Virus record (IMG/VR): IMGVR_UViG_3300044627_000097
Coordinates: 1-25,927 of that record
Source: a virus
Strand: one strand, 5' to 3'
DNA: 25,927 bases
In this document: in pieces, positions 108-25,411 of the stretch
How positions within the stretch are numbered: the stretch's first letter is position 1
How the letters are laid out: each line of letters begins with the position of its first letter
Made by a program: the position numbers and the translations under genes
The notes under the pieces: model-generated
Seen by the model: the letters and a program-made list of their open reading frames with translations, nothing else
Database searches by the model: none
What the model was told of the DNA's origin: nothing

Positions 108-454
108 GGTGCAACAGGCTCCGGTGTTGGGTTCCAGGGCAGCGGCTGTTCGATCACCGGATCAATTTTGTCTGCAATTTGTTTTGCAATAAGACCATTA
201 ACGTGTTCCTCATATGAACCCGTCACCATTGGCTCGATCCAACCCAAAACAATTTGCTCGGTCAATTGATCGAATGGAATAAAACCGGGTTGATTTGGGG
301 TCGGCGCAAATGGGGTCGCTCCTGTAAACGTGCCGGTATTGCCGTTTGCATCAGTGCCGGTTTTTGTCCAATACGTTTGCACAACATAATTGGTTTCACT
401 GCCGACATTTGTGACTTTCATGCCGGTGACAGCCCAGGTATATGTGATGGTCAT
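104..454 (-). CDS. Small tail-module protein of unknown function
   Basis: A 116-residue protein starting with ATG at 454, overlapping the fibre gene stop as ATGA. It opens with a beta-rich segment ([14 protein letters not shown], then a strand containing [13 protein letters not shown]), followed by a Gly/Thr/Pro-rich middle (GTFTGATPF) and a helical segment ([15 protein letters not shown]). It ends in a proline-rich tail ([13 protein letters not shown]). There is no signal peptide, membrane segment or catalytic motif. Similar small proteins with a TYTW...VVQTYW start sit beside fibre genes in many aquatic phages, but I know no assigned function. Position suggests a fibre accessory or assembly role; this is inference only. 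Confidence 0.65.
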
Positions 455-3400
455 TTTTGATCCCCAATTAATTTTTCTACAAGGGCTTCAAGCCTTGCAA
501 TTTTCTCATCTTGATGAATAACTTTTTCTGCCAATTTGACAGCCGCCACAAGCGCCGCATTGCCGTAAGCCACCGATAACATTCCATTGTCATCTGCCGC
601 CACAGCTTCTTTTAGAACCTGCTGTAATGATTGCGCCCCAACGCCGACCTGCCTCGCGCCTGAATCCGTTCTAGTGTAGGTTCCCGCTTTTACCAGCGCA
701 AGCGATTTGATGAAGTCATCTTCAACATTGGCCCAATCCGTTTTTAATCGTTCATCAGAGTTTGCTTGCACCGTTCCGGGAACAACTAAATCACCCGTGC
801 TTGCATTGAATGAAAACGCTGTTGCAGTTGTGCGAACATATGGCGTTGCGTTTACGCCGCCAGCAGTTACAAACACTGGGTAATACGTTGCCGAAACCGT
901 CGTATTGGTGCAATTAATTACGTTTGACGGGCCTGCTGGGCCAGTTGGGCCTGTCGGGCCGGTCGGGCCTGCTGGGCCGGTTGCACCGGTTGGCCCCGTT
1001 GGGCCTGTCGGCCCAGAAACGCCAGCAGCCCAAACGCCATCACCGCGCCAGAACGTCGATGATGACGCACTTGTTCCGCTGTTTAAGCGTGAAACTGGCA
1101 GATTGGCGCTCAGTGATCCCGCGCTGCCGGTGACGTTAATGCCCCAGGTGCCAGAAGCATCGCCACCCGTGCGGGTTGGGACGTTTAAAGATGCTCGGAA
1201 TCCGGTAGCGTTGTTCTTTCGAATGTAATCATCTGTTGATGAATAAAAAATAGTGTCGCCTGTCGCGCCAGATACCCCGTGCGACATGTTGAAATAACTT
1301 GCAAAACCATATCTGCGGAAATCATCGCCACTTGAATCTCGCAAAACAATTTGATTTCCGTTTGCCGCTACAGATGCCGTAGTCGTTGCGCTGTTAGCTT
1401 GGTTTGTAATTGTGGCGGCATTACCGTTGATGCTCCCGCTAATTGTGTTTGCAACAGTAAGGCCAACAATGCTGCTTGTGCTTGACGGATTTACAAAATA
1501 TGACGTATTGCTTGGGTTGTAAAACGAACTTGCATAAGCAGCATTATTATTGTTTGTGCTGCTTGTTGGCGGGTAAACAGTATGCGTCGCCTGTATACTG
1601 TTGTAAGACGAAGCGTTAAACGTAATTGCCCAGCCGTTATCCCAACGATCATATTCATAATTGGTGTAACCAACCTGAACCTCAGTGATAAACACCTGCG
1701 GATATGACCACGACGAACCCAATTCACCAATGTATACATACATGGTGCTTCCGTCGCTGGTAAATCTTACATTTAGGGCAGACCGATTTTGCGTCCCCAT
1801 GTAAGCGAACGTGTTGTACCAGTAATTTCCGGATGTATGGCCGCCACAATAAATGTCGAACGACAACCCGTCGTAAGTGTACACACGGACAGTAAACCGG
1901 ATCATCGGATATACCGACTGCGGCAATGCAATTCTTATTGCTCCACTTACGGTTGATGCGCTTGTTACATAAGAGCCGCCACCCGGATTTATGTTTCGAA
2001 GTCCATTTGAGTTGTTGCTGACAGCTTCCTGCGTGACAATATTCACAAGACTTGATACGCCGTTCGGATCAACGTAATAGGCGGTGTTGTTGGAATCGTA
2101 AAAAATTGGCGCTCGAAATGAACTGGCAACCCAGTTATTACCGGACATGTCCAATTCCCAACGATTAGCAGCAGCAGACCAGCCGCCAACCCGCATCACG
2201 TTGTCAGAATCAAGCCCAAAATTAACAGCGTATTGATTGGCTCGATGAAAGGCCATAATGGCCCCGCTGCCGTTGTCGGAATATGCTTGTAAAGGCGACC
2301 CAGAAGTTGGCGCGGTGTTTCCGTTGGATCGGAAATAGTTTGCCCCCGTCCATGTGTTTGTCGTGCCCAAAATGCTTGCGCCAGATGGCCCAGGCGGGCC
2401 AGCGGGGCCGGTGGGGCCGGTCGCTCCGGTTGGGCCTGTTGGGCCAGGGTTTCCCGTTGGGCCTGTTGCACCAGTTGGGCCTGCGGGGCCAGTTGGCCCA
2501 GGCGCTCCCGTTGGCCCCGTTCCACCCGTTGGGCCGGTCGGGCCGGTTGGAATAGTGAAATTAAATACCGCAGCAGATGATGTGCCGCTGTTGGTTACCG
2601 ATGCAGCCGATCCTGCGGGGCCGGTTGTAGTTGGGCCAACCGCAATTGTTGCTGCGGCTCCTGCCGCCCCTGCGGGGCCGGTTGGGCCGGTCGGGCCGGT
2701 TGTTCCAGGCGGGCCAGCAGGGCCGGTAGGGCCAGGGCCACCTGTTGGCCCCGTCGGGCCTGTGGGGCCGGTCGCCCCAGTTGGGCCAATCGGAATGCCA
2801 AAGTTAAACGTAGCTGCCGACGATGTGCCGCTGTTTGTTACCGTTGCCGCGCTTCCTGCTGCAAGGTTTGTGGTTGTACCAACCGCAATGGTTGCCGCTG
2901 CACCTGTAGGGCCGGGACTACCTGTTGCGCCAGTTGGCCCTGTTGGCCCCGTTAAGCCAGTTGGCCCTGTTGGGCCTGCTGCACCTGTAGGGCCGTTAGG
3001 GATGCCGAAATTAAATACCGCCGCCGATGATGTGCCGCTGTTCGTGACCGTAGCAGGACTGCCAGCCGTCAGGGTGCTAGTAGTGCCAACCGCTATGGTT
3101 GCGGCTGTTCCGGTTGGGCCGGGTGCGCCAGTTGGGCCGGGCGATCCTGTGGCTCCTGTTGGCCCTGTGGGGCCGGTTGGGCCAGCAGGGCCGGGTGCGC
3201 CTGTTTCTCCAGCGGGGCCGGGTGATCCTGTTGGCCCCGGCGCTCCAGTGTTGCCTGTTGGGCCTGTTGGCCCGGTCGGGCCGGGACTACCTGTAGGGCC
3301 GGGCGCGCCTGTTGGGCCAAGCTGTGTATACATCACCTGCGTTGCCGTAAGGATGATGCTCGGCGTGACCGGATAATTGCCGCTTGCCGGTATTGTTTCT

Positions 3401-3984
3401 AGCGAAACGCTCGTGTTATTTGTTTGCCAGAAAATTTCGATGTAATCGTTTGCGGCAACATTCAAAACGTAATTGACCGTAAAAACTTCACTGCGAATAG
3501 AACCGCTTTGTTTGTCTTGAACGTCAAAATGCGAATTGCTGTCGGCTAAATTGCTGCCGTTTTTCTTCAGCCAAACTTGCGTTGACCCAACAGCATTGCT
3601 TGCATTTGTAAATTGAATTGAAAACGTGATGCTGTAAACGCCGACATATTGAAATGTCAATCGCGTACCAGAAACAATAGAAACGCCGCTGTTTGCCGCG
3701 TCAGCATTATTTAAAGCAACAGCGTATGCCGTATTTGCGGCTGCTGCTGTTTGGTCTGCTGTTGACCAAAACGAACCCCAGTACCCTAAAGCACCGCCTG
3801 CCCCGGTCGGGCCTGTCGGGCCGGTAGCCCCGATTTGGACAATGCTTTGACTGCCGCCAACATCTTTTTTTATGAACAGCTTGCCGTCAGTTGTGTTGAC
3901 CGCAAACTCGCCTAAATCAAGATCGGATGTTGTCGGCACTTTCCCGAGAACAGATGATCGCTTAACCTGAATTTTGTTTGGCAT
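451..3984 (-). CDS. Collagen-like tail fibre with S74 intramolecular chaperone
   Basis: An 1177-residue receptor-binding fibre. Residues 1-50 form a short virion-anchor domain (KIQVKRSS, then LGEFAVN and DGKLFIKK). Residues 64-220 resemble a C1q/TNF-like jelly-roll beta domain. Residues 223-535 hold Gly-X-Y collagen blocks, mostly GPT, interrupted by three copies of a 37-residue module. Residues 536-990 are a long beta-rich, Asn/Ser/Tyr-rich shaft or binding region with repeated F/Y-Y-x-x-x-N-T-x-Y-x-V-x-P units. Residues 991-1019 are a second collagen block. The C-terminus carries the endosialidase-type peptidase S74 chaperone with the SDERLK motif; Ser1076 and Lys1081 match the self-cleavage dyad of the family. 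It ends in a coiled coil. ATG at 3984 has AAGGGA seven bases upstream. The domains imply a homotrimer released from its chaperone after folding. The receptor is unknown. Confidence 0.88.
454..759 (-). other. S74 chaperone domain, predicted self-cleaved
   Basis: This is the last 102 residues of the collagen-like fibre. They begin at Ser1076 in the sequence AN-SDERLK and contain the GVGAQSLQQ and [20 protein letters not shown] elements. They end in a coiled coil ([14 protein letters not shown]). In characterised S74 proteins, such as the phage K1F endosialidase, this domain trimerises, folds the fibre and is then cut off in front of the conserved serine. Cleavage here is predicted between Asn1075 and Ser1076 from family knowledge. 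Confidence 0.8.
928..1014 (-). repeat. C-terminal collagen-like GXY block
   Basis: This stretch encodes fibre residues 991-1019, an uninterrupted Gly-X-Y run dominated by GPT, just before the final 56-residue linker and the S74 domain. At DNA level it is a degenerate nine-base GGNCCNACN periodicity. It probably forms a short triple-helical stalk next to the chaperone. Confidence 0.8.
2380..3318 (-). repeat. Collagen-like GXY region with three interrupting modules
   Basis: This encodes fibre residues 223-535. Collagen blocks cover residues 223-292, 331-361, 400-443 and 481-535. Between them lie three copies of a 37-residue module at residues 294-330 (2995-3105), 363-399 (2788-2898) and 444-480 (2545-2655). 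Each module starts ATIAVG, has VTNSGTSSA in its centre and ends FNF(G/T)IP. The blocks share a nine-base DNA periodicity, so length variation by recombination or slippage is likely. Confidence 0.85.
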
Positions 3985-10400: not shown

Positions 10401-10802
10401 TTGATCGACAGCATCAAAAAGACAACGCTTGCCGCCCCAATACACGTTGCCAAAACTGATTGTGTCGGGCGTTTGCCCCGGCTCTGTGTTTGTCACTTCG
10501 CATAGCGTCATGACGTAAAACAGTTTTTGATTGTCGCTAGTGATGCTAAGGTCGGTTACGATGCCGCCTAAAAATGCCGTGCCATACACAACCGGAACTT
10601 TGTTATCGCCTGCTGGCGGCAATTGCACCGGACTGCCAGGGTTTGGCGTTGCGTCATTGGTTCCAAAGCCTTTTGGTGCAAATGCTTTGCTAATGATAGA
10701 CGATGCCACCATATTGACAGCAAATGCCACAGCAGTTGCCGCAAATCCTGCCGCAATGACTCCCGCATTCACCAAATAAGCCGCAATGATTGATCCCGGC
10801 AT
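7485..10802 (-). CDS. Tail tip attachment protein (J-like)
   Basis: A 1105-residue protein, the largest of the tail tip. I start it at ATG 10802, which overlaps the upstream stop as TAATG; four codons further upstream there is only an in-frame TTG. Residues about 4-41 are strongly hydrophobic (SIIAAYLVNAGVIAAGFAAT and following). Then comes the tip-protein signature (LPPAGDNKVPVVYGTAFLGG, residues about 60-85). Residues 100-500 contain hub-like elements, including RYKPGDCLADYLQSARYGA, QAMASCADCLIRYNEITGKW and LEAGDIVTVTNANYGWVAKL, resembling lambda J and GTA-type hub proteins. About 520-620 is FN3-like. The C-terminus, about 815-1105, holds three small modules with the NG...YT/YD pattern. It is expected at the distal tail end, contacting the host and carrying fibres. 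Confidence 0.85.
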   Translation of the reverse strand: MPGSIIAAYLVNAGVIAAGFAATAVAFAVNMVASSIISKAFAPKGFGTNDATPNPGSPVQLPPAGDNKVPVVYGTAFLGGIVTDLSITSDNQKLFYVMTLCEVTNTEPGQTPDTISFGNVYWGGKRCLFDAVDQYKVIGLLDESTGVTDNTVSGRLNIYLFRNGSSSGANTAQTAIQIMSSAGLVYQWDNTKLMSNVAFAIVEITYSQSANLTGLQQTRFQVTNSRYKPGDCLADYLQSARYGAALTTLQIDYATLTALNVYSDTAVTYTTFSGTSANQIRFRFDGALDTNQTVMDNIQAMASCADCLIRYNEITGKWGVIVQSSSYTVAMDVNDSNMVSAIQITPIDLASSYNIIEVKFPDGTNQDSFNTALFNLAVVNPSLMYPNEPVNKQTVTLGLVNNNVRAQYIANRLLEAAREDLQIKVNINYVGLQLEAGDIVTVTNANYGWVAKLFRISQVVEQFGADGSITANLTLMEFNPAVFDDANVTQFTPAPNTGIGSPLGFGTLTPPAIVSVQPSAAVPSFGVSVTASANGIVQYAEVYYSAFANPTDAQRIFAGTTAVNPGGNPYNPSSSMGVVTLTEIPQGDWYFFVRMVNALGSSAFSTASSVLVWRPLTFQYVDRYIAVAYADNATGTVGFTTNPRNKAYFGLYNNATANPPAAGASAYTWYQASSNFGTTNYLLFANRQNRKFSFDIGNAAQANQTATFVPTDTSKFDDSLWSGLPDGINIIDLDQRTGQLTRVGTTSISSADGLLSITNNTSGSMVVSLERFLNFGAGVYSKTFNAATLTIDIYGRVVGFTQPDSFYFTESVFTATGGQTSFAVTHTVGNVLVFRNGILLSTTEYTETSTTVVLNNACAAGETVVVFNMRAVSTDIYYEPLQTSVNTAAGFVVNYTFNPYQIIEPGDKITFANTGTPTQYTVASTDTTFNNITFTTSVAGVAAGSQIYRYRAAGSEYRPFSRIEDDVTFVSDYASGIITITNGFELVFVNGSALNEIDYDLEGFGIGGFPSPLTGRIIIIQMAANNFGVPASNITNTVAYSTSGALSYTFPNNPLSMALYANGALFAKGSGYDYTATSAGYNLTTAIPNNFTLLNQQTFARDGAA

Positions 10803-11257
10803 TACATCACCCAAAATTCTTCAAGTTTTTTAAACCCAAATTTTTCATATTTCAAATCTGGGCTGCTGACCATTTTGCTGATAAAACAATTGGCAATGCG
10901 GCCTGCTTCCTTCATCTTAACCGCTTCGTTTAAATACTCGCGCAACAATCGGTAGCCTGTCGTGCCGCCCCTGGCTTCTTCGTCCACCCAATACGCAAAT
11001 TCAGTCAGCATCAAATGCTTAGGCGACCAAACAGATGGCATCACGCCCGCGATTAAAACGCCCACAAGGCGCTCGTCTTGCTCTGCCACTATCACCACGC
11101 CCTGGCCCGCCATCAGATGCGCCAGCATCGTTTTAACGTGTTCTGCGTCATCAGCATTTGCCAAGAACCCATAGGGCATGTGCGAACGGTAATCCCGCAG
11201 CTTGTCCAAAATCTGCGGAACATCAAACGGTGATGCCTTACGAATTTGCGGGCGCAT
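10802..11257 (-). CDS. GNAT-family N-acetyltransferase
   Basis: A 151-residue protein with the GNAT layout: an N-terminal helix region (KASPFDVPQILDKLRDYRSH), a beta strand pair (GVVIVAEQDERLVGVLIAGV), a strand at 82-91 (LMLTEFAYWV) and the acetyl-CoA pyrophosphate loop at about 95-104 (ARGGTTGYRLL). Near the C-terminus is the usual GF-containing strand (YEKFGFKKLEEFW). It transfers an acetyl group from acetyl-CoA to an unknown amine. The gene overlaps its upstream neighbour by 20 bases and shares a TAATG with the tip gene, so it is translated with tail-tip genes. GNATs in tail cassettes are known in other phages without a settled role; modifying a virion or host protein is possible. Confidence 0.8.
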   Translation of the reverse strand: MRPQIRKASPFDVPQILDKLRDYRSHMPYGFLANADDAEHVKTMLAHLMAGQGVVIVAEQDERLVGVLIAGVMPSVWSPKHLMLTEFAYWVDEEARGGTTGYRLLREYLNEAVKMKEAGRIANCFISKMVSSPDLKYEKFGFKKLEEFWVM

Positions 11258-12521: not shown

Positions 12522-14579
12522 TTATCGGCTCATTGGTAAAGACCGCTGGGCGCTTTGATTTGCCGCCCAGACCGCTTGCTTATTTTGCGCCAAAAACTGC
12601 ATTCCTGACTGCGTGTCAATTGCGCTCATCTGCTGGATATATGGGCCGTTGTAATTGATCGTTTGCCCACCCATTGCGTTTGCCAATTGATTTGTGGGAA
12701 CGATCATGCCGCTTCTTTGCGGCACAAACAACTCCGGGCCGCGCTCGCCAACAATATACGGACTGTTCCCTGATACTGGGCCACCGTTTGCCATCATTGG
12801 GATGACGCCAGCATTTGGATTTGCAAGATATTGGTTAAAGTCTGCTGGCAATGCGTTTTGTGCTAAACCTGGGCCAATAAAACTACCTGAGCCTACATTA
12901 CCAATTAACCCACCGACTAAACGCGAAAACAAAGCACTTGCTTGCGCTCGCATTTGAATCAAGATCAAATCTTGAATAATGCTCCGGGTCAAATCTTTAA
13001 AACTCAATTTGCCCGTTTGAACAAATTTAGTTAAAGCCGCATCCATACTGCCGACCATTGATCGAAAAGCCTCTCCACCATATTGGAATGCAGTTCTTGC
13101 GTTTTGCGCTTGTTGTATTGCAGCCGCAAAGAAACCAATTGTCCCCATATCTTCCGATTCCATTTCCACTCGGAATTTATGACGCTCCCTTGCGACAGCA
13201 AATTCAGCTTCCGTAACTTGTTTTTGCAGCCACAATGCATCTTTTTTTTGTTTGTCTGTCAATGCTTGATTTTCGTTTATCTCTTTTACTTTATCAGCAT
13301 ATTTAAATTGCAATTGCAGAACTTCTTCGGCAAGTTTTACATCCCTGTCTTTCATTAACAGTGCTTGTTTTTGCAAATCAAAAATAGTTAATTGACGTTT
13401 TGCAGTTTCCTCATCTGCTCTTGCTTGTCGAGCATAAAACAATTGCGCTTGCTGTCTTTGATCGTCTTGCTGGGCAAATGCCCGCGCATCTTCTTCCCTT
13501 TGATTCTGTCGATCAAATTGAGCATCTACGATTCGTTGCTGCCTTTTGTTTTCTGCTTCTTCTTCTGCTTCGCGGTTTTTTCTTTGATAATCAAATAGCT
13601 CTTGATTTTCTTTGTTTATGCGCTCTCGGTCTTGCTCTCTTAACTGCATTACTCGTAATCTTATTGCCAATTCTTTTTTGGCAGCTTCTTCTGCTTCTTT
13701 ATCAACTCCAGCCTTAACTGGCCGTCTTTGTATAACCGGCGCTCCAGCATTTGCAACGCCAGCCACATCAGCCGGTGTTGGTTCATTGCTTTCGGGTTTA
13801 GGTGTTTGTTTATTTCCAGCGCCATATCTAATTTGCGGAAAAATCATTTTCCACAAATCAGAATCTTCAAATTTTTTACCTTCTAAAAAAAGTTTTTTTA
13901 CTTCATCTGTCAAAAACTTCATTGTTGGGCCAACAGTTGACGCCATCTTTTCTGATGCCCTGCGGCTCATTTCCGCAAGATTGTCATAAGCATCTGCCGC
14001 CGCTTTTATTCCGTCTTCATGCTGTTTTGTAATTGTTGTTAATTTGTTAATTTCTTCGCCAAATCCTTGGGCATCAACTCCTTTAAAGGATTTACCAAAA
14101 ACCTCCATGCCTTTTGCGCTGCGGGTCAGCGCGTCATCCATTCCAGCAAGGCCAATTGCTGTTTTCCTGAACAACTCATCTATGCTTAATGTTTTTAAAT
14201 CTTTTAGGGAAACGCCCAGCCCTTGTAGCGTTTTCTGCGCCTCAAAAGAACCTTCCGCAGCTTTGTCAATGTACTGGGTAAAACTGGACAAAAACTTTGA
14301 TGCGTTACCTGCCTCGCCGCCGCTTTTAGACAGCGCATCGCGCAATTGAATAATTGACGAAACCGCTACGTCATTTGCTTTTGCAACATCTACAATTTCA
14401 TCAGCGTATCTTGCCGCCGCGAGACTTGCCCCTGCAAATGTCGTCGCTGCAATTGCGCCATATTGCTGGGCAAACTGCCCAATCGATTGCAACCCGCGTT
14501 TAGCGCCCTCGATACCGCGTGTAAATTCCGCGCTGTCAAGCCCCAGCGTAACGCCCAATCGACCAATAAAGTTTGTCAT
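12522..14579 (-). CDS. Tail tape measure protein (lambda-type C-terminus)
   Basis: A 685-residue protein that fixes tail length and is delivered into the cell during DNA ejection. It starts with ATG at 14579, overlapping the chaperone gene stop as ATGA. The N-terminus (RLGVTLGLDSAEFTRGIEGA) is the typical tape measure start. Residues about 40-65 are Ala-rich and hydrophobic. Residues about 295-470 form a long charged coiled coil (KRQQRIVDAQFDRQNQREED and similar). Residues about 505-550 match the lambda tape-measure C-terminal domain (MDAALTKFVQTGKLSFKDLT). Around residue 600-630 is the conserved GGPVSG...VGERGPELFVP element. At about 0.15 nm per residue, a tail near 100 nm would be expected; this is a family rule of thumb, not a measurement. 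Confidence 0.92.
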   Translation of the reverse strand: MTNFIGRLGVTLGLDSAEFTRGIEGAKRGLQSIGQFAQQYGAIAATTFAGASLAAARYADEIVDVAKANDVAVSSIIQLRDALSKSGGEAGNASKFLSSFTQYIDKAAEGSFEAQKTLQGLGVSLKDLKTLSIDELFRKTAIGLAGMDDALTRSAKGMEVFGKSFKGVDAQGFGEEINKLTTITKQHEDGIKAAADAYDNLAEMSRRASEKMASTVGPTMKFLTDEVKKLFLEGKKFEDSDLWKMIFPQIRYGAGNKQTPKPESNEPTPADVAGVANAGAPVIQRRPVKAGVDKEAEEAAKKELAIRLRVMQLREQDRERINKENQELFDYQRKNREAEEEAENKRQQRIVDAQFDRQNQREEDARAFAQQDDQRQQAQLFYARQARADEETAKRQLTIFDLQKQALLMKDRDVKLAEEVLQLQFKYADKVKEINENQALTDKQKKDALWLQKQVTEAEFAVARERHKFRVEMESEDMGTIGFFAAAIQQAQNARTAFQYGGEAFRSMVGSMDAALTKFVQTGKLSFKDLTRSIIQDLILIQMRAQASALFSRLVGGLIGNVGSGSFIGPGLAQNALPADFNQYLANPNAGVIPMMANGGPVSGNSPYIVGERGPELFVPQRSGMIVPTNQLANAMGGQTINYNGPYIQQMSAIDTQSGMQFLAQNKQAVWAANQSAQRSLPMSR

Positions 14580-14920
14580 GTTTTAAACCTGTCTTGCCGA
14601 AATCCGGGCGCAGCCGTCATGTACGTTTTCAAAGCGTTATTGGTGGCTTCTTTTTGCTGCTCTGGAGTCAGTGGCGGCACAATGTAATCATAAGCGGATG
14701 ACAAAATCTTGGCTAGCTTGAAATCCGGTGTGTTTGGCGCACGCATGTAATTAAACACACCCGCCGTTAATTGTGCTAAAACTGTTATCACCCCTTGATT
14801 GCCCAGCACCCCATCCGAATACATTACTTGGATTTGGGCCATCGTCATTTCGTCCAACTGCGCTAGGCTGTCGTGTGTGTGCCCATTGAAGATCATCGCG
14901 CATTCAACCTGCGTCCTCAA
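14576..14920 (-). CDS. Tail chaperone T domain, reached by -1 frameshift
   Basis: This frame holds the lambda T-like part of the tail assembly chaperone. It has no good start of its own: the first in-frame candidate at 14920 is TTG without a ribosome-binding site, and the first ATG is at 14896. The frame is open back to the slippery site at 14932-14938, adding LISS before this ORF, so the natural product is a 280-residue G-T fusion spanning 15417-14576. The T portion is mostly helical (LAQLDEMTMAQIQVMYSDGV, then QGVITVLAQLTAGVFNYMRA, then TPEQQKEATNNALKTYMTAA). In lambda, gpGT binds the tape measure and recruits tail-tube subunits. Its stop overlaps the tape measure ATG. Confidence 0.8.
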   Translation of the reverse strand: MRTQVECAMIFNGHTHDSLAQLDEMTMAQIQVMYSDGVLGNQGVITVLAQLTAGVFNYMRAPNTPDFKLAKILSSAYDYIVPPLTPEQQKEATNNALKTYMTAAPGFRQDRFKT

Positions 14921-14928
14921 TGAGCTAA

Positions 14929-15417
14929 TCAGTTTCCCCGCGTTTCCTTGTAACTTGGGCTGATTGCCTCGGTGATCTTTTCAATCAAAGCAACTTGCAC
15001 AGTCCACGGCCATTCTGATTCCACTTCTTCGTATGTCAAATCATCAAGTTTCATGTCAGGCTGTTCAGGAACCAACAGCTTGATATATTCCACAACTCGA
15101 TTTTCCGTCATCGCTTTATTTTTTGCCGCTTCCCTCATGGATCGGCCTTTAACCACAATATCGTTTTCTTGATACTGAATTTCCGAATCTGCTGTTGCTT
15201 GATCTTTTAGCACAAGCAATGGCTCGGCCAGTTGCTGATAGATGCGCTCAATATGCTCTGCGTCTGGGTCGCTGATCTTTTTGTAGATCGCGTCCGATTC
15301 CGCAACAAACGGAATGCGAACTTTGAATGTGTGCCCGCCCAGTTCAAATGAACGGATAAAAATATTTGCGCGTTTGGCTTGGTATTTTTCGCCAAGAAGA
15401 TTTGAAAGTTTTGTCAT
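14929..15417 (-). CDS. Tail assembly chaperone G-like protein
   Basis: A 162-residue protein starting with ATG at 15417. It begins with a beta-rich part (FIRSFELGGHTFKVRIPFVA) followed by helices (IERIYQQLAEPLLVLKD, SMREAAKNKAMTENRVVEYI) and an acidic helix (DDLTYEEVESEWPWTVQVAL). This is the layout of the shorter tail chaperone encoded ahead of the tape measure in lambda-like phages. The final codons read CGG GGA AAC TGA, a canonical -1 slippery heptamer immediately before the stop, so a minority of ribosomes should continue into the T frame. It acts in the cytoplasm during tail assembly and is normally absent from virions. Confidence 0.85.
   Translation of the reverse strand: MTKLSNLLGEKYQAKRANIFIRSFELGGHTFKVRIPFVAESDAIYKKISDPDAEHIERIYQQLAEPLLVLKDQATADSEIQYQENDIVVKGRSMREAAKNKAMTENRVVEYIKLLVPEQPDMKLDDLTYEEVESEWPWTVQVALIEKITEAISPSYKETRGN
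14932..14938 (-). promoter_or_regulatory. Programmed -1 ribosomal frameshift site (G GGA AAC)
   Basis: The heptamer fits X XXY YYZ in the zero frame of the G gene: codons GGA AAC, preceded by a G and followed at once by TGA. After slipping back one base, the ribosome reads CTG ATT AGC TCA and enters the open T frame, giving 280 residues. An internal Shine-Dalgarno-like AAGGA lies six bases upstream (14945-14949). I see no obvious strong downstream stem-loop. Lambda uses GGGAAAG at the same position in G/GT. Confidence 0.88.
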
Positions 15418-15975: not shown

Positions 15976-16209
15976 TTAAGCCCCCGGCTTGATAATGCGG
16001 TGAAAAATTTCGTTGTTCAACTCTTTAACGTAATTGACAACTTCGGCAGGGGTCATTGTGTCGGCATGACGCGCCGCAATTTGATGGCAAAGGCTAACGC
16101 CGGTCATCCGCTGCTGCAAATAACCGAACCATTGCTTGCCGTCTTTTTCGGCCTGAGCAGCCAAGAATGCCAGCAGGTCATCGCTGGTCTTTATATCGTG
16201 TTGGATCAT
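15976..16209 (-). CDS. Small helical protein of unknown function
   Basis: A 77-residue protein between the tail tube and the gp10-like gene. It is largely helical (SDDLLAFLAAQAEKDGKQWF, TPAEVVNYVKELNNEIFHRI), cytoplasmic in character, with no membrane segment or known motif. I place the start at ATG 16209, after the strong hairpin at 16217-16244. An alternative ATG at 16251 overlaps the tail-tube stop as TAATG, but its extra residues simply translate the hairpin and look unlike coding sequence. Neither start has a clear Shine-Dalgarno sequence. Position suggests a tail assembly accessory factor; no family recognised. Confidence 0.6.
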   Translation of the reverse strand: MIQHDIKTSDDLLAFLAAQAEKDGKQWFGYLQQRMTGVSLCHQIAARHADTMTPAEVVNYVKELNNEIFHRIIKPGA

Positions 16210-16216
16210 GTCTTGT

Positions 16217-16244
16217 AATGCCCCGCCCCATAGGGCAGGGCATC
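16217..16244 (-). other. Strong hairpin after the tail-tube gene
   Basis: In the transcript, a stem of 12 base pairs (two of them G-U) joins 16233-16244 to 16217-16228 around a UAUG loop; the core is GCCCTGCCC paired with GGGCGGGGC. It begins seven bases after the tail-tube stop codon. The bases after it contain no U-run, so it is unlikely to be a simple intrinsic terminator. A 3'-end stabiliser, processing site or weak attenuator would fit a highly expressed tube gene. Confidence 0.7.
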
Positions 16245-16250
16245 CCACCA

Positions 16251-16781
16251 TTAGGTGTTGGTTGACCAGCCGTAGCTGTTGCCGCCAACCGGGTGCAGCG
16301 TGAAATTGAACTTGCTTTCCGCTGCGGTGTTCAAGTCCCAAGTCATGCCGCCCACGCGAGCGTTGAAGGCGTAAGCCACGGTGTTGGTGCCGTCATACAC
16401 AGCCACCACATAGGTGCGGATAACCGACCCGCTGTAGCCGTCACCGCGAATCAGCAACAGGGCAGGGTCTGCGCTGTTCCAAGCTGCGGTGATGGTCATG
16501 CTCGTGACCTGATTCTGTGTCGTGATCTTCGCGCCTGTCCGGGCACCAGCAACCGCGTAAGCAGCCATTGCATCATCGGCACCGAATGGGGGAATGTTCT
16601 CAACGGGAATCAAAAGACAGGTGGTACTTGTGCCAGTACCGCCAGCAGATGAGCCAATCAGATTGGCAACTTGCGCCGTCCAGGTAGACAGTTGTGCATC
16701 TGTCAGGGCAACGGGCGACACCTCGTCTTGCATCCACAGGGTTGCCACATAACCGGGCATTACTTTATTAATAAGAGCCAT
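16251..16781 (-). CDS. Major tail (tube) protein
   Basis: A 176-residue beta-rich protein in the tail-tube position, after the tail terminator gene and before the chaperones and tape measure. It begins MALINKVMPGYVATLWMQDE and has strands such as TTCLLIPVENIPPFG, SMTITAAWNSADPALLLIRG and IRTYVVAVYDGTNTVAYAF, ending GWSTNT. The start ATG 16781 has AAAGGA nine to ten bases upstream in a 41-base gap, a better ribosome-binding site than most neighbours, as expected for an abundant structural protein. The tube polymerises around the tape measure. Family assignment is by position, size and beta content; no strong signature motif is visible. Confidence 0.75.
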   Translation of the reverse strand: MALINKVMPGYVATLWMQDEVSPVALTDAQLSTWTAQVANLIGSSAGGTGTSTTCLLIPVENIPPFGADDAMAAYAVAGARTGAKITTQNQVTSMTITAAWNSADPALLLIRGDGYSGSVIRTYVVAVYDGTNTVAYAFNARVGGMTWDLNTAAESKFNFTLHPVGGNSYGWSTNT

Positions 16782-18268: not shown

Positions 18269-19285
18269 TTAGGCTGCGCTCATGCGAACACCGGCAAACG
18301 GATCACGCACAGATGACACCATGCGCTTTTCCGCAAACATCGTAATAAACCCAGGCTGTGTTTGTTCAAATGCTTTAATTGTCATTTGCTCAGTGTCGCC
18401 AATGGTCAGGAATCGCGTCCAATTTGCAAGGTAAATCGGGAATGCGCTTGTCAGGTAAGGATTGGCAATAACCGGGAACCCAAACACATGGCCCAAAGCG
18501 TAGCCGTCTTTTTCGCCAATCTCAAGAAACAGCGGCAAACCTTGACTGTCTTTAAGCTGGCGTAGCGTTTGAATCATGGTCGGGGTCATGTGCCACATCG
18601 TCCCCGGCAGCATCCAATATTGCGGAGGCAAGGCGTTTACCATGTCCACAACCTTGTTGTAGGTTACAGCCGACCCGCCAAGCGCCACCGTTGCCAGCGT
18701 GTGGATGCCGTTTGTAATTGCAGTGCCGCTGGTGCCAAATGCGCTTGCTGCGCCGCTGGCGTACATGTCCAAGCCCCGCAAGCCATTTGTGCCGCCTGTG
18801 CTTGTTGTAGTGCTTCCAGCTTGATCGTTATTGACCGCCATTGATGTGGCCTCAAGAGCCGAAAACTCTAGCATCAAATCTTCGGCAATCGTCGGCTCAA
18901 GGTTGTTAACGTCCGACAGCACTGCTGTGCGGATCGGCAATTGAGCCACCAACACGCGCACAGGCAATTGCCAAATGCTGGTGTTTACATTGGGCGAACC
19001 GCTATTAGGCGTGAAAGTGTAGCCCCAAGGATTCGTGCTGTTTGCTGCGTTACCTGTTTTGGCAACAAATTGCATATCCGATCCAATGGCAGGAATTTGT
19101 CGCGCAGCCAAACGAAAAGGGTTTGCATATCGCAACGCTGCGAAAGCATCATCAAAAACAACATTACCGCCAACACCCGAACCCGAGCCGGTAATTGCCG
19201 ACGCTTCTTGCAAATCAATTTTTGCCTCACCGCCTTCGGTGATTGCCTGCTTAATACCGCTGAGGATTTTTTCGGTGATGGTCAT
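18269..19285 (-). CDS. Second major capsid protein paralogue, no delta domain
   Basis: A 338-residue HK97-fold capsid protein clearly related to the one upstream: both share E-A-S-A-(I/L)-T-G near their start, FPIRTA, G-L-R-G-L-D, PPQYW/PQQYW, PGFIT and the C-terminal SVRDPFAGVR. Residue 27 here aligns with residue 106 of the upstream protein, so this copy lacks the 80-residue N-terminal coiled coil and begins close to where that domain would be cut. ATG 19285 lies just downstream of an intrinsic terminator and has only a weak GGA ribosome-binding element, which predicts lower expression. Likely roles are a vertex (penton) or minor shell protein, as T4 gp24 is to gp23; a decoy remnant is the alternative. 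The reading frame is intact. Confidence 0.85.
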   Translation of the reverse strand: MTITEKILSGIKQAITEGGEAKIDLQEASAITGSGSGVGGNVVFDDAFAALRYANPFRLAARQIPAIGSDMQFVAKTGNAANSTNPWGYTFTPNSGSPNVNTSIWQLPVRVLVAQLPIRTAVLSDVNNLEPTIAEDLMLEFSALEATSMAVNNDQAGSTTTSTGGTNGLRGLDMYASGAASAFGTSGTAITNGIHTLATVALGGSAVTYNKVVDMVNALPPQYWMLPGTMWHMTPTMIQTLRQLKDSQGLPLFLEIGEKDGYALGHVFGFPVIANPYLTSAFPIYLANWTRFLTIGDTEQMTIKAFEQTQPGFITMFAEKRMVSSVRDPFAGVRMSAA

Positions 19286-19307: not shown

Positions 19308-19335
19308 AAAAAAGGCAGGGGACGAATCCCCCGCC
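19308..19335 (-). terminator. Intrinsic terminator between the two capsid genes
   Basis: In the transcript, GGCGGGGGA pairs with TCCCCTGCC (nine pairs, one G-U) around a TTCG loop, followed immediately by six U residues (19308-19313). It lies 15 bases after the first capsid gene stop and 22 bases before the second capsid start. No separate promoter for the second capsid gene is apparent, so it likely acts as a partial terminator (attenuator). Confidence 0.88.
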
Positions 19336-19350
19336 AATGGCTTCCTGCAA

Positions 19351-20700
19351 TTAGGTCGCGGTGCCGGTCGAGCGATAACGCACACCAGCAAACGGGTCGC
19401 GCACAGATGTTGCCAAACGCTTTTCCCCAAAGAATGTAATAAATCCTGGGAGCGTCTGGTCATATCTCCGCATAACCATGTTCAGACGGTCAATGATGGT
19501 ATGGAACCGGCTCCAATCCGCAAAGTACATCGGATACAGGCTAGTTGTGCCAGCCGACCCCGTTGCGGTTTGCGATGGCGTGTCCAAATACTTGTTGACC
19601 ACAACGTCAAAGCCCAGCAACTGCCCAACAATACCCTCAACCGACAGACCCTCGTTACGGTTAAAGATTGGTGCCCCGTTGTTGTCCTTCAAATTCCGAA
19701 TGCCGTTCAGCAAAATCGGGCTAATCAGGAACTTGGCGTTTTCTGTCCAATACTGCTGCGGCAGTGCATAGATCAGATTAATAACATCGTTGTAAGTGAT
19801 GTTATTTGCGCCGACGGTATTGCCGTTGGTGGTGATCTGGTCATAGGTTGCAACGTTGTGCAAACCGCTGGTCGAACCGGTGCCGCTAGTGCCGAATGCC
19901 GAAACGCTGAACGTGCCGCCCGCGTATGTAGCATTTGCGCCAGGGTACTGATCCAGACCGCGCAGGCCATCAGCGCCGCCAGTTGCAACCGATGTGCCGG
20001 TGCCGCTTTGGTCATTATTGGCGATCATCGAAATCGCCTCAGACTGTGCGAATTCGGCCAGCATGTCATCGACAACGTTTGCCTCAAGGCCATCAATGTC
20101 ATCCAGAGCCGCAGTGCGGATCGGGAATTGGACGTTGATATCCTTCAGCACGATTTGCCAAATGCTGGTGTCCTCGGTTGTTGCCGCGCCGTTGTTTTGA
20201 ATGGCGTAGCCCCACTGTGCGCCAGCGTTGCCGGTCTTGACGCGGAATTGATAGCTTGAGCCATCAGTTGCCACGGTGCGGGACATGCCGCGCAGCGGGT
20301 TGGCAAGACGCAGCGCACGAAACACGGGGTCATACGCGGTGCGTCCACCCTGATTATTACCGCCGCCGGTCAGGGCCGATGCCTCGCTCAAATAGGCTTG
20401 CATCTCAGCTTCGTTGGCAAAAATCTTCAGTTCTTTTTCAAACTGCGATTTGCCGCCAATAACTTGTTTCAGTTGCTCACGAACCGATTTGTTCACTTCT
20501 TTGCGAACACTGGGGCTTGTGCGCTCAATGTAAGCAGGCGCTTGCAGGGTGGAAATTTTGGCTTCCAGGGCTGCGACTTTTTCAGTCAGTTCCGCTTTTG
20601 CGGCATCTACTTTGGCTTCAGCAGCCGCCGTGATTTCGCTAATTTTGGCTTCGTTGGATGCTGCGATAGCGTCCAGCTTTTCAATGATTTTGTCAGACAT
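19351..20700 (-). CDS. Major capsid protein (HK97 fold) with N-terminal scaffolding domain
   Basis: A 449-residue capsid protein. Residues 1-55 form an alanine-rich coiled coil (KLDAIAASNEAKISEITAAA and onward), residues 56-105 are helical linker, and LSEASALTGGG at 104-114 marks the probable start of the mature protein, giving a delta domain of about 105 residues (103 in HK97). The capsid body has WGYAI, FPIRTAALDDIDGLEA, GADGLRGLDQY, a helix around ALPQQYW and the C-terminal GFITFFGEKRLATSVRDPF. ATG 20700 follows AAGG by six bases and the protease stop by two, as usual for HK97-type protease-capsid pairs. It builds the shell after protease maturation and should be the most abundant product of this block. 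Confidence 0.92.
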   Translation of the reverse strand: MSDKIIEKLDAIAASNEAKISEITAAAEAKVDAAKAELTEKVAALEAKISTLQAPAYIERTSPSVRKEVNKSVREQLKQVIGGKSQFEKELKIFANEAEMQAYLSEASALTGGGNNQGGRTAYDPVFRALRLANPLRGMSRTVATDGSSYQFRVKTGNAGAQWGYAIQNNGAATTEDTSIWQIVLKDINVQFPIRTAALDDIDGLEANVVDDMLAEFAQSEAISMIANNDQSGTGTSVATGGADGLRGLDQYPGANATYAGGTFSVSAFGTSGTGSTSGLHNVATYDQITTNGNTVGANNITYNDVINLIYALPQQYWTENAKFLISPILLNGIRNLKDNNGAPIFNRNEGLSVEGIVGQLLGFDVVVNKYLDTPSQTATGSAGTTSLYPMYFADWSRFHTIIDRLNMVMRRYDQTLPGFITFFGEKRLATSVRDPFAGVRYRSTGTAT

Positions 20701-24727: not shown

Positions 24728-25411
24728 TTATATTAATAATTCTTGTTTTTGCAGCACGTTTATATTTTGATCTTCAAAAATATCGCTTTGTCGTTGCGCT
24801 TGCTCTATTCTTTCGCAAGCAATATCAAAATATTTTGGTTCGCGTTCGATGCCGATAAATTTGCGTTTCATTTGCACCGCCGCCACGCCTGTAGTGCCGC
24901 TGCCCATAAATGGGTCAAGGATGATGTCGGGGTTGCCAGCTTGCTCAATGCACCACGCCATCAATCTGATGGGTTTTTGTGTTGGATGAACTGCGCCATC
25001 TTGAGCAATTGCTGCACGGTTAAGCAAATAAACACGCATTGCTCCTTTCATTGAAGTCCATGCAAGTTCCCCGTCTGCTTGATCTATCCTCTGCCCTTTA
25101 TCCCAAAAAAGCCACTTGCTTGTTGCTGGAATAAGGTCTGCAAAATAGTTGCCACCCCAAACAATTTGCACATCTGATTTTTTGATGATGCAATCAAAAA
25201 AATATTTGCTTGGCCTTCCTTGATCCCACCCTAAAAACTCATAGCCTTTGTGGCCTCCGTGGGAACTGGTGGATTTTGGTTTTCCATCACGCTTGATCCC
25301 ATAAGGCGGGTCTGTAATCACCGCATCCACCTTATCAAGCGTTGGCAGCACTTCCATGCAATCGGCCAAATACAAAGTTGCTAGGCCAATTTCAACTTTT
25401 TTAATGGTCAT
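24728..25411 (-). CDS. DNA methyltransferase (N6-adenine/N4-cytosine type)
   Basis: A 227-residue SAM-dependent methyltransferase. The catalytic motif IV VITDPPYGI (Asp34-Tyr37) comes before the SAM-binding motif I DPFMGSGTTGVAA (166-178), the circularly permuted beta-class order. VHPTQKP (141-147) is the conserved element before motif I. DPPY favours N6-adenine; N4-cytosine is possible. The short central segment (38-140) must carry target recognition, and the recognition site cannot be read from sequence. ATG 25411 overlaps the small terminase stop (ATGA). Likely roles are self-methylation of phage DNA against restriction or marking of packaging substrate. The gene sits between the two terminase genes; no partner endonuclease is in the window. 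Confidence 0.9.
   Translation of the reverse strand: MTIKKVEIGLATLYLADCMEVLPTLDKVDAVITDPPYGIKRDGKPKSTSSHGGHKGYEFLGWDQGRPSKYFFDCIIKKSDVQIVWGGNYFADLIPATSKWLFWDKGQRIDQADGELAWTSMKGAMRVYLLNRAAIAQDGAVHPTQKPIRLMAWCIEQAGNPDIILDPFMGSGTTGVAAVQMKRKFIGIEREPKYFDIACERIEQAQRQSDIFEDQNINVLQKQELLI

Follow-up and report, generated by a model that had tools for sequence, protein, structure and literature searches.

What does a very stable hairpin do directly behind the stop codon of a phage tail tube gene, when it carries no U-run of the kind that marks an intrinsic terminator? The locus that raises this question belongs to a freshwater phage and lies in the IMG/VR record IMGVR_UViG_3300044627_000097, whose 25,927 nucleotides were analysed as a whole and are called the window below.

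The hairpin and its flanking genes

The hairpin, GAUGCCCUGCCC-UAUG-GGGCGGGGCAUU, occupies positions 16217-16244 on the minus strand, which is the coding strand of the late operon, and refolding of this strand returned the coordinates, the 12-pair stem, the UAUG loop and the missing U-tract just as the preliminary description had given them. Two of the 12 pairs formed by GAUGCCCUGCCC and GGGCGGGGCAUU are G-U. The minimum free energy is -22.9 kcal/mol (z -4.59), a value reached by none of 200 dinucleotide shuffles, and the hairpin is not due to chance. Of the 16 gene ends of the window that were compared, this one has the lowest energy, followed by the end of the first capsid gene at -20.6 kcal/mol, and the hairpin also provides the overall minimum (-25.2 kcal/mol) of the 3236 sliding 44-nt segments of the minus strand. 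As 38 of these segments reach -19 kcal/mol or lower, many of them within GC-rich coding sequence, strength alone does not make the element unique, and its place and covariation are decisive.

Regarding known signals, the stable GC-rich stem-loop of an intrinsic terminator is present and its U-run is absent, the eight bases past the GC core, ATTACAAG, having a T content of 2/8. The tube hairpin is likewise absent from the consensus terminator scan of the window, in which the capsid hairpin described below ranks first and which as a whole is at chance level (24 sites, 29.1 expected). The 41-nt spacer holds no promoter-like site, such sites being at chance across the window (25 against 27.0 expected), and an Rfam search of the window at the gathering score gave no match.

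The upstream gene (16251-16781, minus strand) encodes 176 aa and ends in a TAA at 16253-16251; six bases follow before the hairpin, the first stem base being the seventh after the stop. Pfam and PHROG searches with the product were without match. Its AlphaFold2 model, built with 33 related sequences as input (mean pLDDT 77.6, pTM 0.80), has phage tail tubes as its best PDB matches, including 9mfe, the tail core of Escherichia phage YDC107 (E 2.8e-5), and it matches lambda gpV at E 2.9e-4 (7t2e) and 3.2e-4, with a TM of about 0.5 for the tail-tube matches. The name tail tube, in the sense of a gpV-type tube, is thus supported by the predicted fold.

Between the tube stop and the next start lies a spacer of 41 nt (16210-16250, minus strand), which contains the hairpin and measures 40-43 nt in the close clade. 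The next gene (15976-16209, minus strand) encodes 77 aa, is conserved in relatives and begins with the ATG at 16209-16207, seven bases after the 3' arm, without a canonical Shine-Dalgarno (SD) motif. Among the relatives introduced below, this motif precedes 133 of 137 tube starts, compared to 2 of 65 starts of the 77-aa gene in rows with a hairpin and 4 of 69 in rows without one.

The hairpin was also considered as coding sequence, as the window and the relatives nearest to it have an ATG that overlaps the tube stop (TAATG) and opens a frame of 91 aa running through the hairpin and on into the next gene. This candidate was rejected because the spacer of the clade is 40, 41, 42 or 43 nt long, covering all three frames, so that the frame is not kept, and because the conserved start of the next gene lies after the hairpin.

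Occurrence and covariation among relatives

Relatives of the tube gene were collected by six IMG/VR scans, each contributing up to 80 loci, so that the counts below describe a sample weighted to close relatives. The 236 sequences obtained (the window plus 235 loci, which include a stretch of phage P19250A and two MAG loci) were reduced to 139 distinct rows by leaving out those that matched another exactly across the tube gene plus 60 nt and those ending less than 110 nt after the stop. One locus left out in this way, L190, shows on visual reading a C-first stem of terminator type behind the tube gene, and L189 carries none. A nucleotide search of the phage collection gave no match, and the protein search found one record, Methylophilaceae phage P19250A, which at 49.7% identity is the closest cultured relative. 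Two MAG contigs, of Betaproteobacteria and Rhodocyclaceae, carry relatives too, and together with P19250A they make a betaproteobacterial host likely.

A stem was counted when a GC stem of -7 kcal/mol or lower, with at least four G-C pairs, lay no more than 60 nt past the tube stop, and it was classed as U+ with at least four T in the eight bases past the GC core, or as U- with fewer. By this rule, 68 of the 139 distinct relatives among the matches listed have a GC stem at the same site and 71 have none. The 68 stems (among the matches listed) divide into 50 U+, with 4-7 U in the eight bases, and 18 U-, although stems near -7 kcal/mol arise in 22% of shuffles, so that chance may account for a few of the U+ assignments, and the class of three rows (L021, L103 and L183) is sensitive to the threshold. 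The median distance from stop codon to GC core is 7 nt in U+ and 8 nt in U- rows. As 71 of the 139 relatives, the cultured P19250A included, lack the stem, it is dispensable in the family. Two relatives, L019 and L045, have in place of the GC stem a larger one behind the tube stop, made of GAATCTTT-like repeats, and their next ATG follows at about 95 nt.

A smaller set of 101 rows (39 U+, 19 U-, 43 without stem) allows the tube site to be compared with other gene ends of the operon. A hairpin of -9 kcal/mol or lower follows the tube gene in 52 of 101 rows, compared to the second capsid gene in 6/84, the connector in 7/94, head completion in 4/62, gene 16823 in 0/96, the gp10-like gene in 4/88 and gene 14576 in 6/86. 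The exception is gene 14929, with 56/89 at -9 kcal/mol, where a second, overlapping frame also runs through the sequence. At the stricter level of -12 kcal/mol within 45 nt of the tube stop, 37 of 101 rows have a hairpin, against 4.5 expected from shuffles.

Covariation was examined in an ungapped alignment of 11 close rows (the window, L002, L004, L006, L010, L014, L015, L024, L027, L050 and L139), picked as close relatives for their shared 4-nt loop; L011, L013 and L052, whose loop measures 8 nt, are not part of it. Pairing is kept in 97.3% of the 110 cells (shuffled mean 90.0, none of 500 shuffles as high), and sliding the partner out of register lowers it to 47-59%. Changes on both sides occur in 4 of 10 pairs, a number reached by 6 of 500 shuffles and compared to 0-1 such pairs in the slid controls, and in nine cells, which none of 500 shuffles reach; relatedness is ignored by all of these shuffles. 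Further pair types are not above shuffles in the 11 rows (8 compared to 7.1; 159/500). In addition, G-U pairs are tolerated, one pair being U-G in 7 of 11 rows and another G-U in 2 of 11. Covariation in relatives had been proposed in the preliminary description as a check on the hairpin, which came through it, since 4 of the 10 pairs have changed on both sides. As judged from the alignment, the end of the tail-tube gene carries an RNA hairpin under selection.

Outside the close rows, the stem has changed more quickly than the sequence around it: the tube gene of L011 is 85.5% identical to that of the window and its spacer 52.3%, the stem being quite different. Among relatives, stems at the tube site come and go and are exchanged as a whole. 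Such turnover is what could be expected of a DNA- or repeat-type element, for example a REP-like sequence, an insertion remnant or a recombination site, without a role in RNA. We regard this as very improbable, as the record of 25,927 bases, which may be a fragment, contains the sequence once at up to three mismatches, its polarity and place relative to the tube gene are constant, and the tolerated G-U pairs fit RNA rather than DNA pairing.

U-runs at the tube and capsid sites

The second stem to be considered lies after the first capsid gene (19314-19335, minus strand), where a hairpin followed by TTTTTT has the appearance of an intrinsic terminator. The window has two tandem genes of major-capsid type (19351-20700 and 18269-19285, minus strand), both assigned to phrog_10, and this hairpin with its TTTTTT stands between them. 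The preliminary description had drawn a parallel between the tube and capsid hairpins. It holds for the strength of the stem, as all 98 rows readable after the first capsid gene have one of -12 kcal/mol or lower, and not for the rest: the U-tract is retained at the capsid stem, with at least four T in 83 of these rows, and the polarity of the arms is opposite, the 5' arm being C-rich in 68/68 tube stems and G-rich in 97/98 capsid stems. In the window's own clade, the capsid stem has TTTTTT in all nine readable rows, which makes the lack of a U-run a feature of the tube site in particular; neither the base composition of the genome nor an unusual host polymerase readily accounts for it.

On the tube tree, the window's clade is uniformly U- (12/12 rows; SH-aLRT 99 on one tube tree and 95 on the 139-row tree), and a wider group of 22 rows (support 96) contains 13 U-, 5 stemless and 4 U+ rows. 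The three states require at least 19 changes on the 139-row tree, compared to a shuffled mean of 55.8. Since most of the other hairpin rows have a U+ stem at this position, a loss of the U-run in the window's clade appears the more economical reading, and no proof, as the rooting of the tree is arbitrary.

The stronger the stem, the fewer U follow it (Spearman 0.69 for 39 distinct stems, 0.64 after correction for GC). A trade-off between stem strength and U-run is not claimed from this, because only three independent pairs are found on starred branches (sign test p 1) and common descent remains.

That 50 of the 68 hairpin rows have a U+ stem at this position also favours the possibility that the tube stem is a working partial terminator, at which NusA/NusG or Rho of the host aid release despite the poor U-run. 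Its end lies 34 nt past the stop, within the 25-75 nt at which most E. coli termination points fall according to the available text of PMC12207403. Against this, only 2/8 bases after the tube core are T, compared to six at the capsid stem of the same genome, and the stem begins a mere 6 nt past the stop. As described in the excerpted part of PMC4824070, a trailing ribosome blocks the folding of a terminator, full efficiency being reached at more than 27 nt, and moving a stop to 5 bp from tR2 lowered efficiency from about 90% to below 10%, so that a close ribosome would suppress termination here. This interference applies to the U+ relatives too, given their median of 7 nt between stop and GC core. 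A working partial terminator is thus considered possible, on the doubtful side.

Candidate roles of the stem

The reading preferred here, to which we give a probability of about 0.5, is that the element would be a terminator-derived gene-boundary hairpin, marking the tube mRNA at its 3' end and lowering the expression of the next gene. The two roles suggested in the preliminary description, protecting the 3' end of a processed tube mRNA and slowing RNA polymerase, are putative. It starts from what is observed directly, namely the place of the hairpin, its covariation, the distribution of U-runs and the SD-less next gene, and the canonical terminator-like stem at the tube site of relatives is the reason why the element is best understood as derived from a terminator. 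In the U+ relatives, the GC stem with its U-run would release some of the transcripts, as a leaky intrinsic terminator behind a gene whose product is needed in abundance. The window's clade has no U-run and keeps, under selection, a longer and stronger stem. There, the stem may block 3'-to-5' exonucleases arriving from the distal part of the transcript and so fix where the tube mRNA ends, and by separating the SD-less next gene from the tube stop it may let ribosomes re-initiate less often. Both effects, exonuclease blocking and reduced re-initiation, probably weigh more than termination in the clade, and the net outcome would be more tube protein than downstream protein.

The part played by re-initiation follows from the distance between the two genes, as the median gap from tube stop to next start is 8 nt in hairpin-less rows, 32 nt in U+ rows and 41 nt in U- rows. 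A gap of 8 nt suits re-initiation at the next gene's ATG, and one of 32 or 41 nt with a stem, compared to 8 nt without, suggests that the stem probably weakens the coupling between the tube gene and its neighbour.

Published systems resemble the gene-boundary hairpin in part. In Listeria phage CKA15, a mapped intrinsic termination site follows the tail tube gene (PMC12282133, available text), and the likeness extends to a GC-rich stem directly after that gene and, in the window's relatives, to a U-run; unlike the CKA15 terminator as presented there, the stem of the clade has no U-run and stands 6 nt after the stop, and termination at it is putative. For E. coli, the accessible portion of PMC11696848 describes low-energy terminator stems of -28 to -22 kcal/mol and about 14 nt as best for the abundance of the upstream transcript, to which the tube hairpin compares with its 12 pairs, about -23 kcal/mol and its place at the 3' end of an mRNA in high demand. 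However, those stems, as far as that portion goes, also bore U-runs and ended their transcripts, whereas some transcripts must here continue into the next gene, so that a stabilising effect of a stem lacking the U-run goes beyond that work. In the literature searched, no paper on late transcripts of this phage group was recognised.

Hairpins are also known in translational coupling between neighbouring genes. Such a role would mean that the stem hides the G-run of its 3' arm, as the sole ribosome-binding sequence of the next gene, until the ribosome terminating on the tube gene opens it. As in coupling hairpins, a stop codon precedes the stem and an SD-less start follows it, and the stem contains the only complement to the anti-SD: pairing of -4 kcal/mol or lower is found in 60 of 65 hairpin rows when the 3' arm is counted and in 0 of 65 from the bases past the stem alone, and a G-run lies in the 3' arm in 68/68 tube stems, compared to 1/98 capsid stems. 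Unlike them, it has no canonical SD, its spacing is long and the next gene is SD-less in hairpin-less relatives too. The 3' arms are G-runs rather than GGAGG, with GGAG, GAGG or AGGA in 2/65, though the stem could easily carry the motif, and the G-run lies 11-14 nt from the ATG in 42 of 65 rows and 5-10 nt in only 13. Moreover, a G-rich 3' arm is a trivial outcome of C-first polarity, GCCC..GGGC-UUUU being a common terminator form. Coupling of this kind is therefore judged unlikely.

It is still less likely, in our estimate, that the stem would be a bifunctional switch, combining a terminator-type brake with a cover over the only ribosome-binding stretch of the next gene. The ribosome finishing the tube gene would then prevent the brake and uncover the start, and the clade would have dropped the half of the device that depends on the U-run and kept the translational half. 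If this were true, the downstream gene would be made only in proportion to active translation of the tube gene.

Taken alone, the gene-boundary hairpin is a modest regulatory element. Its wider value lies in the natural series that more than 100 related phages present at one gene end (no stem, stem with U-run, U-less stem), for which the U-bearing capsid stem of the same genomes serves as an internal control. The series lets one ask which parts of a terminator stem selection keeps at the ends of the most abundant structural genes.

Other features were noticed in the window. The gene at 14929-15417 (minus strand) ends in ..CGG GGA AAC TGA, with the slippery heptamer G GGA AAC at 14932-14938, and its -1 frame is open into the gene at 14576-14920 (minus strand), just before the tape measure gene; the pair looks like a tail assembly chaperone with a G/GT-type -1 frameshift. 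The sequence after the stop of gene 14929 is similar at the nucleotide level among the relatives compared. A 151-aa ORF within the tail genes (10802-11257, minus strand) resembles by eye a GNAT acetyltransferase, and a 227-aa ORF with a DPPYG motif (24728-25411, minus strand), which adjoins a terminase-like ORF, resembles by eye a DNA methyltransferase. Finally, the long ORF at 451-3984 (minus strand), of 1177 aa with collagen-like G-P-T repeats, is probably a tail fibre, and the 340-aa open antisense frame at 2354-3376 (plus strand) is a product of that repeat.
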